The translations under genes and the position numbers were made by a program. Under the pieces are notes generated by a model. It worked only from the letters and a program-made list of their open reading frames with translations. It searched no databases and was not told the origin of the DNA. Of a stretch of DNA of 28,381 nt, positions 13,918 to 24,784 are shown piece by piece. Within the stretch, counting starts at the first letter, position 1, and each line of letters opens with the position of its first letter. Source of the stretch: Erwinia amylovora (lineage in GTDB: Bacteria; Pseudomonadota; Gammaproteobacteria; Enterobacterales; Enterobacteriaceae); the NCBI RefSeq assembly GCF_017161565.1, contig NZ_CP066797.1, forward strand, positions 1 to 28,381. The letters run 5' to 3'.

Positions 13918-14521
13918 TCATTCCAGTAGATCCAGGATCTCGTTAGTCATAACCTCAATTTCTCCTTTTCGCTTCCATCCGTGGTATCAAACACTGCACC
14001 CCGTCCAGCATAGTGCGTATATGAGCCTGTCGCTGCACTGCAGCGGTTTTTAACGCTGGGACACCTGTTTCCTCGATCGAAGCTTGCAGAACCTCCAGCG
14101 TGCGCGTGGAGGCCACTTTTAGGCGATCACAAAACGTGCAATGACGGGCTGTAAATTTTTTCTTGCCTCCACAACCGCCAGGATAGTCGCATATGCAGCA
14201 AAGTCGAGCAGTGAAGGTGTTACCGGAATTCATACCAGATCGCTCACCATGACGGCTGCGGAGGTAATGGCAACGGCACCATCAGTGACCACATCATCAT
14301 GATTTTTCAGATATTTACGCACGCTATAAACTTCTTTTTTCCGATGATGTCTCTGCAAGGTCGAATAGACATTTTGACTCGTTATACCAGTTACTGATGC
14401 TGCCCTGAGGATCAGTATCGACCATCGCAACCTTGTGCCCTTTACGTGCGAGGCTGGTAGCGATGTTGATGAATGTTGTGGTTTTCCCTGCCCCACCTTT
14501 CCCCTTCAGAAAAGAGATCAT
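13918..14521 (-). pseudogene. Decayed ParA partition ATPase
   Basis: A Walker-type ParA. The first 65 residues are open (MISFLKGKGGAGKTTTFINI, VDTDPQGSISNW). A frameshift near 14330 leads to YSVRKYLKNHDD and ITSAAVMVSDLV. Another leads to IPVTPSLLDFAAYATILAVV with a stop, and a third to EVLQASIEETGVPALKTAAV and HIRTMLDGVQ. The C-terminus EIEVMTNEILDLLE ends at 13918. At least three shifts, so no product is expected. It aligns along its length with the intact ParF at 23691-24311 but is clearly diverged, so it is an older, different parA rather than a recent copy. Its place next to the origin suggests it was the ancestral partition gene. Confidence 0.88.
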
Positions 14522-14686: not shown

Positions 14687-14920
14687 AGATCTATTCTTGT
14701 TCTGTCCCATTCTGTGTTAAGATTAACTGTATTTAAATGCAGCCTGTTTGATAATTCTGTAATTCTGTAATTCTGTAATTCTGTAATTCTGTAATTCTGT
14801 AATAGATCTATTCTTGTTCTGTCCCATTCTGTGTTAAGATTAACTGTATTTAAATGCAGCCTGTTTGATAATTCTGTAATTCTGTAATTCTGTAATTCTG
14901 TAATTCTGTAATTCTGTAAT
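14687..14920. repeat. 117-bp tandem duplication, each with six 8-bp repeats
   Basis: Bases 14687-14803 and 14804-14920 are identical over 117 bases. Each copy starts AGATCTATTCTTG, continues through about 66 unique bases, and ends in six units of AATTCTGT (ATTACAGA on the other strand) at 14753-14800 and 14870-14917 plus AAT. The 8-bp array is the short sequence repeat known for strain typing on pEA29. Because 8 is not a multiple of 3 the translated repeat makes an apparent peptide pattern, but nothing supports a gene. Confidence 0.97.
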
Positions 14921-23226: not shown

Positions 23227-23544
23227 CTAATGCAGCATCTGGCATTCATCCTTGTGCGCTTCGACGCAGGAACGCAGCACGGCATGAATGCGTGTCTGGT
23301 AACGACCGGTATGCGCTGAAGAATGCCAGCACGTCGGCATCAATACGCGATGTGACCTGCTGCTAAGGTTCGGGAAGCCTGTCTGATGTCGCCCGGATGG
23401 TATCAGCCAGGGGGGGGGCGTCGCCGTAGTCTGTCCGGTCATCAGGCATTGCTTTCAGAGCAGCCAGTCGTGTTTTCTGCTCGTCGGTCACGACGGGCGG
23501 CTGGTGCAGATCAACAGTTTGCCTGACGGTTTTTTTTCGCTCAT
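23227..23544 (-). pseudogene. Decayed BrnA-type antitoxin
   Basis: Recognisable as BrnA: KKTVRQTVDLHQPPVVTDEQ, KTRLAALKAMPDDRTDYGDAPP, then an in-frame TAG, QQVTSRIDADVLAFF, a frameshift, and HTGRYQTRIHAVLRSCVEAH to the stop at 23227. The likely start ATG (23544) is itself out of frame with the body, through a run of eight A immediately behind it (nine would restore MSEKKKTVRQ). Thus three lesions. The partner toxin brnT, normally just upstream, is absent; the parF centromere lies there instead. Confidence 0.75.
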
Positions 23545-23620
23545 GCTCATTCACACAAAAACTCAAATGAGTATGTGAGTATAATCTCATTTGAGTTTTT
23601 GTGTGTATTCATCTTTACTC
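23545..23620. promoter_or_regulatory. parH-like centromere: tetramer boxes on an 8-bp phase
   Basis: Four-base boxes start every 8 bases: 23545 GCTC, 23553 ACAC, 23561 ACTC, 23569 GAGT, 23577 GAGT, 23585 TCTC, 23593 GAGT, 23601 GTGT, then (one gap) 23617 ACTC. Spacers are four bases and AT-rich. In the ParFG system of plasmid TP228, ParG binds degenerate ACTC tetramers with AT-rich spacers. A perfect 20-bp inverted repeat (23552-23571 and 23586-23605) is embedded. Confidence 0.8.
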
Positions 23621-23646
23621 ACCCCGAACAATATGCAATCATATAT

Positions 23647-23690
23647 ACACATAAGAGTAAATGAGTATATACTCAATTGAGGTTTTGAGC
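23647..23690. promoter_or_regulatory. parFG operator: second phased box cluster
   Basis: Boxes at 23647 ACAC, 23655 GAGT, 23663 GAGT, 23671 ACTC, 23679 GAGG and 23687 GAGC keep an exact 8-bp period and end at the parF ATG. The perfect palindrome TGAGTATATACTCA covers 23662-23675. ParG bound here should repress parFG. Confidence 0.75.
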
Positions 23691-24311
23691 ATGAAAGTGA
23701 TTTCTTTTCTAAATCCCAAGGGCGGTTCAGGTAAAACAACTGCTGTTATTAACGTTAGTGCTGCAATGGCGCGCGCAGGGTACAACATTGCGGTTGTTGA
23801 TACCGATCCACAGATGAGCCTGACCAACTGGAGCAAAACGGGTAACGCAGCATTTGACGTTTTCACCGCAGCTTCGGAAAAGGATGTTTACGGGATCAGG
23901 AAGGATTTAGCAGAATATGATTTCACTATAGTTGACGGTGCTGGCTCTCTGTCAGTGATCACATCAGCAGCAGTTATGGTCAGCGATCTTGTGATTATTC
24001 CTGTAACACCAAGTCCGTTAGATTTCTCGGCCGCAGGGAGTGTTGTAACGGTTCTTGAGGCTCAGGCATATAGCCGAAAAGTCGAGGCGAGATTCCTTAT
24101 CACCCGTAAGATTGAACAAGCCACCATGCTCAAAGTCTTGAAGGAAAGTATCAAAGACACAGGCGTTAACCCTTTTCGAACAGCAATTACCCAGCGTCAG
24201 ATATATGTGAAATCCATACTGGACGGGGAAAGTGTGTTTGAGTCAAATGATGGTGCAGCTAAGGGTGAGATAGAAATGCTTACTAAAGAGATAGTTAGTC
24301 ATATTGAGTAA
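23691..24311 (+). CDS. parF: ParF Walker-type partition ATPase
   Basis: Segregation ATPase of 206 residues, the same length as TP228 ParF and nearly identical in my memory of it. The deviant Walker A NPKGGSGKTTAVINV is at residues 8-22, the switch region VVDTDPQMSLTNWS near 36-49, and Walker B-type FTIVDGAGS near 80-88. It polymerises or forms nucleoid waves with ATP and moves the plasmid through ParG bound at the centromere. I chose the ATG at 23691 because the family starts MKVISF; the frame is open to 23661 but those codons overlap the operator boxes. It is followed by parG after a 107-base gap that is itself full of ParG-type boxes. Confidence 0.95.
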   Translation: MKVISFLNPKGGSGKTTAVINVSAAMARAGYNIAVVDTDPQMSLTNWSKTGNAAFDVFTAASEKDVYGIRKDLAEYDFTIVDGAGSLSVITSAAVMVSDLVIIPVTPSPLDFSAAGSVVTVLEAQAYSRKVEARFLITRKIEQATMLKVLKESIKDTGVNPFRTAITQRQIYVKSILDGESVFESNDGAAKGEIEMLTKEIVSHIE

Positions 24312-24397
24312 TGACTCATATACTCTTATACACATAAGCTCATACGCTCATAAGTGTATATACACAAAAGCTCATATACTCATTGCATCACCAGTGT
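24306..24397. promoter_or_regulatory. Third phased ACTC box array between parF and parG
   Basis: Boxes start exactly every 8 bases: 24306 GAGT (inside the last parF codons), 24314 ACTC, 24322 ACTC, 24330 ACAC, 24338 GCTC, 24346 GCTC, 24354 GTGT, 24362 ACAC, 24370 GCTC, 24378 ACTC, (24386 CATC), 24394 GTGT. Unlike the upstream array most boxes point the same way. It lies just upstream of parG, so it could be a second centromere, a separate parG operator, or both. Confidence 0.75.
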
Positions 24398-24418
24398 AAT
24401 TATTTTGGGAGTGATATT

Positions 24419-24649
24419 ATGGCACTTGAAAAAAACCATACCAGCAGTAAAAAAATGACCTTCGGGGAACATCGAGATCTGGACAAAGTTGTCGATAGTC
24501 CGCTTCCTTCTGGAAAAAGTAAGCGTGTAAACGTCAACTTTAACGAAGAAAAACACACTCGCTTTAAAGCGGCTTGTGTAAAAAATGGTACATCCATCAC
24601 TGATGTAATTAACCAACTTGTTGATAACTGGCTTACAGAGCATGAATAA
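24419..24649 (+). CDS. parG: ParG centromere-binding protein (ribbon-helix-helix)
   Basis: A 76-residue protein, the same length as TP228 ParG. The mobile basic N-terminal tail (1-32, including KKMTFGEHRDLDKVV) is followed by the ribbon-helix-helix fold: strand KRVNVNFNEEKHTRFKAACV and helices to TSITDVINQLVDNWLTEHE. The strand residues contact ACTC-type boxes as a dimer of dimers; the tail stimulates ParF. I chose the ATG at 24419 because GGGAG stands upstream and the family begins MALEK; an earlier in-frame start at 24383 would read through the box array. Confidence 0.94.
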   Translation: MALEKNHTSSKKMTFGEHRDLDKVVDSPLPSGKSKRVNVNFNEEKHTRFKAACVKNGTSITDVINQLVDNWLTEHE

Positions 24650-24784
24650 TTATTATGTCGTCATTGATATTTTATACAGACGAAACACACGCTGTAGCCG
24701 TGTCACCATCCCGCATAATAGTACTATTCACTTTTAGAGATCTTCCGGCATACTGATTATATCCCCTGAGGAGAACACCCTGCC

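Follow-up and report, generated by a model that had tools for sequence, protein, structure and literature searches.

The gap between parF and parG in the Erwinia amylovora plasmid pEA29 holds a third array of short ACTC-type boxes, and a phased array in this gap is a real, conserved feature of TP228-type partition loci that has apparently been overlooked. Our best reading is that this intergenic array (array 3) is a conserved ParG operator core that was expanded to centromere length in pEA29. In full, and going by sequence, we give a probability of about 0.6 to the proposal that array 3 adds to the locus a third set of ParG-binding sites, located inside the operon, which in its short form would act as an operator and which, as expanded in pEA29, would also serve as a centromere while damping parG. 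ParG binding, centromere function and repression at array 3 are what we infer here, and the centromere of this plasmid seems to reach into the plasmid's own control genes. The literature searched, with the primary TP228 and pEA29 sequence papers outside its scope, contains no description of any intergenic ParG array and no binding or expression data for one.

The window, that is, the whole stretch of DNA analysed (28,381 nt, NZ_CP066797.1), is pEA29 itself and forms the second contig in a two-contig genome; its positions 23500-24700 are matched at 99% or more by 24 plasmids of Erwinia amylovora on record, 27-28 kb in length, several of which are named pEA29. The parF gene (23691-24311, plus strand) encodes a ParA-type ATPase of 206 aa that covers residues 1-203 of the TP228 ParF structure 4dzz (E 2.7e-115) and is 90% identical to the ParF of locus L007, as is expected of the small Walker-type ParA ATPase in a TP228-type locus. 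The parG gene (24419-24649, plus strand) encodes a 76-aa ribbon-helix-helix centromere-binding protein of the ParG family (PF09274 at 171.6 bits, cut-off 21.4), which aligns along its full length with 1p94, the structure of TP228 ParG (E 1e-35), and is 76% identical to the ParG of L007. The gap between the two genes is 107 bp. Judged by ParF, ParG and the upstream arrays, the pEA29 partition locus is classed as TP228-type parFGH (type Ib): both proteins are homologous to their TP228 counterparts over their full length, and ACTC-type boxes with 4-bp AT-rich spacers stand upstream of parF. A recombinase-parFG module shared by pEA29 and IncX1 plasmids was considered and rejected: a recombinase gene precedes parF in each, but the encoded proteins are only 26% identical.

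In TP228, ParG dimers coat the centromere parH, and ParG also acts as a repressor from an operator upstream of parFG, according to the sections consulted of two papers (PMC7308502, PMC5016525). Boxes in pEA29 were defined as ACTC/GAGT, ACAC/GTGT and GCTC/GAGC on either strand, and the consensus letters R-C-W-C follow from this chosen definition. Array 1 (23545-23620, no strand assigned) lies 5' of parF in the position of TP228 parH, which it resembles as a centromere array; 8 of its 10 in-phase slots, in a chain from 23545 to 23617, are boxes, and the misses are TCTC at 23585 and TCAT at 23609. Array 2 (23647-23690, likewise without strand) lies directly 5' of parF and may be an operator by analogy with TP228 OF. 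It fills five of six slots in a chain from 23647 to 23687, and its one miss, GAGG at 23679, appears to be the parF ribosome site. With 30 bp from the last box of the first to the first box of the second, these two arrays are mutually out of phase, and together they provide the degenerate ACTC-type boxes with AT-rich spacers that mark the upstream region of a TP228-type locus. Array 1 also holds an imperfect inverted repeat (23549-23608, 80% identity over 60 bp to the opposite strand).

Array 3 (24306-24397, no strand assigned) fills 11 of 12 slots in a chain from 24306 to 24394, 10 of them contiguous, with a single miss at 24386 (CATC). It opens with a GAGT that spans the last parF codon and the stop codon (GAG, TAA); eight boxes read in the ACTC direction and three are reversed, and the three box types are mixed. 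No other unbroken run in the locus is as long, the best in the 260 bp 5' of parF being five boxes. The initial annotation of this DNA had described three arrays in strict 8-bp phase, the third beginning inside the last parF codons and made up of about 11 boxes mostly in one orientation; the observation is confirmed, including the strict phase and the start within the parF stop codon.

None of 2000 dinucleotide shuffles scored as high as the observed sequence in any of the three regions; because the box set came from the initial annotation, this test covers phase and density rather than blind box discovery. When equal tetramers were counted blind, 28 pairs were found at step 8 versus 1-9 at every other step from 4 to 15. 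Steps of 6, 7, 9, 10 and 11 bp in the same three regions gave chains of at most two boxes, and across the whole window, at steps 5-12 and among chains scoring above 8, arrays 1-3 were the only chains of more than three boxes.

For comparison, parFG loci were gathered from named genomes, viral contigs and plasmids. The plasmid records contributed 29 regions, drawn from searches with 690, 770, 785 and at least 5000 matching records and picked for diversity, so that the counts below describe the sample and not the records at large. Loci with both genes and a ParF of at least 220 bits to that of pEA29 were included, giving 53 loci in 22 clusters at 85% ParG identity. The Asn type, defined by the ParG strand motif R-(V, I or L)-N, whose Asn is residue 38 of 1p94 by count, accounts for 46 of these loci and 16 of the clusters. 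Left out by hand were L003 (parG frame broken) and L046 (parG start unclear), together with L005 (broken parF) and L094 (poor parF match), both also below 220 bits for ParF. L012 and L013 have a ParG with a ParF near 105 bits, below the inclusion line, and L014, L048-L077 and L082-L092 have no ParG by profile. A class-wide genome survey for ParG matched 2 of 369 genomes, one of them the source genome itself, and was too small to be used. Shuffle tests and box shares were computed on one representative per cluster.

A phased array occupies the parF-parG gap in the representatives of all 16 Asn-type clusters, each unmatched by 1000 shuffles, and all 16 also carry ACTC, ACAC or GCTC boxes on the 8-bp step upstream. 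In 12 of these 16 clusters, a GAGT overlaps the stop codon of parF. Of the 46 Asn-type loci, 32 have at least three boxes in unbroken succession in the gap, 43 have at least two, and three (L040, L041 and L043) have no run longer than one box. The ParG of L007 is letter-for-letter that of 1p94, and its 51-bp gap contains three contiguous in-phase boxes, GAGTAATT ACACATTT ACTCATAT, as against 107 bp and 10 boxes in pEA29. The placement of array 3 had initially not been associated with TP228; it is in fact not foreign to TP228, because the slot is occupied in a locus with TP228's own ParG and, among the loci collected, is conserved in every Asn-type representative with varying length. The passages on TP228 in the two papers cited above describe ParG sites only upstream of parF (PMC7308502, PMC5016525), so that this model system of plasmid segregation may have had a ParG site at its parF-parG junction overlooked. 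It is important to note that L013, an Aeromonas locus with a distant ParG, has the Asn and GAGT boxes at step 8 upstream, while its parF and parG overlap with no array between them; the intergenic array is therefore not essential in all ParG systems. As for pMET1, the consulted part of its paper states that the repeats 5' of parF have no relation to the TP228 ones. Locus L010, which has the gene lengths and gap of pMET1 (205 aa, 79 aa, 54 bp), carries ACTC-class boxes on the 8-bp step in all three places: before parF, between the genes and beyond parG.

The box type in the gap goes with the type upstream. Over the 16 representatives, the ACAC share of the gap boxes correlates with that of the upstream boxes (Pearson coefficient 0.81, reached in 10 of 10,000 permutations; Spearman coefficient 0.62, reached in 21 of 2000), a correlation that is weaker than these figures look, since the loci are related and the independent cases fewer. 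The six remaining clusters have Gln at the position of ParG residue 38 and fall in two places on the ParF tree. Neither their upstream regions nor their gaps hold an ACTC-class array larger than a pair of boxes (the gap of L080, the upstream regions of L011 and L045; p 0.01 to 0.04). Other tetramers, such as GACA, GATT and their kin, recur on the 8-bp step in five of the six upstream regions, with none clear in L045; these tetramer sets were chosen after the loci had been viewed, and their p-values are only a guide. Asn or Gln at this residue is thus a possible recognition code, suggested by the sequences of the 16 clusters with ACTC-class arrays and the six without. One Gln-type locus, L044, has an unexplained chain past parG, at a distance of about 90-138 bp, in which 7 of 7 slots at step 8 are GAGC; its upstream array is of another type.

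A separate parG promoter-operator, which would unbalance ParG over ParF, had been suggested for array 3. In pEA29, the promoter-like sequence TAGTCA-N17-TATACT under array 3 (24296-24324, plus strand) matches the consensus at 9 of 12 positions and is not above chance, and the gap stretch yields five promoter-like matches against 2.8 +/- 1.7 expected. The same is true of TATACA-N18-TATACT, which overlaps array 2 (23644-23673, 9 of 12, not above chance), and the scan before parF in pEA29 gives z -0.2, so that the parF promoter is missed as well. A promoter must exist before parF, yet the mean z in the 150 bp before it is only 1.09, versus 0.92 in 44 distinct gap sequences, and the scan therefore has little power. 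The TP228-type gap, in turn, contains TTGAGT-N17-TATAAT with z 2.9 to 3.1 in L003, L004, L007 and L008, and six further short-gap loci (L034, L035, L036, L040, L043 and L044) reach z 2.0 to 2.5. The suggestion of a separate parG promoter has better support in TP228-type plasmids, at z of about 3, than in pEA29, where it is weak; as the scan also misses the parF promoter of pEA29, the evidence there is weak too.

These results bear on an operator-only explanation, under which ParG at array 3 would solely autoregulate parG, through its own promoter or as a roadblock, and extra repeats would alter repression and not partition. We consider it unlikely. It would account for a slot that is conserved while its length varies, and for the TP228-type promoter, in which box 1 lies inside the first hexamer and the second hexamer begins 1 bp past box 3. 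It also has parallels elsewhere: the arrays of pSM19035 overlap the promoters of both of its par genes, in the portion of PMC9499535 consulted, and roles in transcription regulation have been proposed for sites such as the repABC parS between repA and repB, in that of PMC9040568. However, promoter z stays below 1.5 in all 14 loci with a gap of at least 90 bp, pEA29 included (in this low-power scan), 10-13 contiguous sites would be more than an operator needs, and arrays located after parG (13 contiguous boxes in L047, 8 in L039) would control neither parF nor parG. With z below 1.5 in the pEA29 gap and a scan of low power, we lean towards a roadblock plus an added centromere rather than a promoter-operator in pEA29.

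It had also been suggested that array 3 is a spacer, or in a related form an RNA element, that tunes parG translation. The array does sit in the untranslated gap 5' of parG, but the RNA fold is no better than expected by chance (z = -0.67; 52 of 200 shuffled sequences folded at least as stably), and parG has its own ribosome-site-like GGGAG (24407-24411, plus strand, 7 nt 5' of its ATG). An 8-bp phase with boxes on either strand would moreover fit DNA binding and not RNA. We regard this explanation as very improbable, and tuning through RNA structure in particular is rejected, as the fold gives it no support.

Array 3 varies in length among pEA29 isolates by whole units. The 8-bp unit GCTCATAC (24338-24345, plus strand) is present in no copy in NC_005706, one copy in the window and two copies in ATCC BAA-2158 (NC_018978), and the intergenic gaps of 99, 107 and 115 bp differ by exactly this unit per step. 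NC_005706 is presumably the pEA29 of strain Ea88; the record gives only Washington, USA. One more change occurs within the array: 24370 is G in the window and A in both of the other plasmids, and the box is kept. Among the matches listed, 21 records at 100% over the whole query have array 3 unchanged, and the pEA29 of TS3128 (99.9% match) has the same array. The TS3128 plasmid (L015, NZ_CP056035.1) also shows an in-frame 96-bp tandem duplication within parF that lengthens the annotated ATPase and is possibly an assembly error.

Gaps of 90 bp or more are found in six of the 16 Asn-type clusters: pEA29 (99, 107 and 115 bp), L026 and L025 (128 and 117 bp, with up to 13 contiguous boxes), L024 (221 bp), a Proteus/Providencia/Moellerella group (90-116 bp, ACAC boxes), L096 and L047 (104 bp) and L099 (94 bp). 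On the ParF tree, the long-gap label needs six changes, four of which are forced by well-supported branches; as one gain with two losses could account for three of the tree changes, we state without a number that long gap arrays arose several times. Several gaps within clusters differ by multiples of 8 (99/107/115 in pEA29, 108/116 in L009/L037, 92/108 in L102/L009 and 29/37 in L038/L039); the differences in other sets, such as 49/52, 90/91/92, 27/29 and 117/128, are not multiples of 8.

Such variation is also what would be seen if a short conserved operator core had simply grown by slippage and the added units had no function. This neutral explanation agrees with the whole-unit indels among pEA29 isolates, the runs of near-identical units in the gaps of L024, L025 and L026, and the repeated evolution of the long state, and we nevertheless hold it to be quite unlikely: the pEA29 units have diverged, yet 11 of 12 slots remain boxes in both orientations, and the box type of the gap tracks that of the upstream arrays. 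Plain slippage plus decay would probably not have kept both orientations and three box types in array 3.

Under the reading that we prefer, of an operator core expanded to centromere length, ParG dimers would coat array 3 at one per 8 bp. The short form of about three boxes, as in the TP228 type, would most likely be an operator, with ParG at the parF-parG junction reducing parG transcription. It would do so either by occluding an internal promoter, in loci that have one (TP228 type), or by acting as a roadblock against read-through. In pEA29 and several other lineages, gains of 8-bp units would then have produced an array longer than the four contiguous repeats that activate the ParA of pSM19035. 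For that plasmid, full ParA activation needs at least four contiguous 7-bp repeats, according to the part of the source consulted (PMC9499535). Array 3 is past this size, and it is therefore most likely an additional, possibly the main, centromere, while it may still damp parG output. By this analogy, an array of three boxes would fit the role of operator and one of ten that of centromere; the threshold itself derives from another system with 7-bp repeats. As the longest unbroken run in the locus, array 3 also makes the second centromere and the unbroken ParG filament of the initial annotation plausible. The pEA29 isolates with 0, 1 or 2 copies of the unit and the relatives with 1-13 contiguous boxes are natural length variants for the question of how many sites a centromere needs.

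Phased boxes are also found after parG. A chain unmatched by 300 shuffles lies in the 120 bp after parG in seven of the 16 Asn-type representatives (L034, L101, L038, L096, L099, L100 and L010); the longest contiguous runs there are 5 in L034, 8 in L039 and 13 in L047, and pEA29 has no phased chain in this stretch. As a tentative possibility, we suggest that the TP228-type centromere is not one fixed site, and that the long segrosome-nucleating run shifts among three slots (before parF, between the genes and after parG) as whole 8-bp units are gained and lost. Its place would be inside the operon in pEA29 and in certain Pantoea and Enterobacter loci, so that ParG occupancy of the centromere would directly throttle the supply of ParG, and one DNA element would be kinetochore and rheostat together. 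L047 has 13 of 13 in-phase boxes directly 3' of parG, and its longest upstream run is three. A trade-off between upstream and intergenic run lengths was also considered; it is suggested by the raw runs in L026 (3, 13) and L099 (3, 6) but not in others such as L024 (6, 11), and no general claim is made.

Other partition systems resemble that of pEA29 in part. The ParB of repABC plasmids belongs to a different family from ParG. Like pEA29, these plasmids have a site of centromere type placed between their ParA gene and their ParB gene, and they differ from it in that this parS is a 16-bp palindrome, as given in the part of PMC9040568 consulted. The delta-omega system of pSM19035 likewise has a ribbon-helix-helix ParB on contiguous short repeats; however, in the consulted parts of the sources, these are 7-bp WATCACW repeats (PMC9499535) and its par genes are not in a single operon (PMC5016525), whereas pEA29 has step 8 and parF and parG side by side. 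At the pEA29 locus, a search for repeats of this 7-bp kind gave ACTC-class chains of at most two boxes and one pair of equal tetramers at step 7, compared with 28 at step 8. Plasmids of the pEP36/pEJ30/pJE01 type, from Erwinia pyrifoliae and Japanese Erwinia, have kin of ParF and ParG and 8-bp arrays upstream, but differ from pEA29 in a Gln in the ParG strand, in GATT/AATC boxes in runs of 19-22, in overlapping parF and parG (L011 and, by annotation, L105 and L106) and in having no intergenic array.

A second, broken parF and the start of a parG are located in pEA29 at about 13920-14521 (minus strand) and 14752-14920, adjoining the 8-bp ATTACAGA repeats that are used for strain typing. In the same place, pEP36/pEJ30/pJE01-type plasmids have annotated parA and parG with GATT boxes at step 8 in runs of 19 (L011), 22 (L105) and 22 (L106), and GATTACAG units (1 in L011, 3 in L105 and 2 in L106) stand where pEA29 has the ATTACAGA repeats. 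Nearly all ATTACAGA units in pEA29 have lost the GATT box, and the typing repeat seems to be what is left of a centromere that was displaced; a link between the pEA29 typing repeats and a partial parA has already been suggested, in the portion consulted of PMC4551865. The typing-repeat block is present twice in the window, as a 117-bp duplication. Finally, the parG product WP_017694173 (1501-1731 in both L093 and L104) is given by the resistance prediction of the plasmid database as AAC(3)-IVb at 100% identity; this protein groups with ParG, and the label therefore looks like a mislabelled reference entry.
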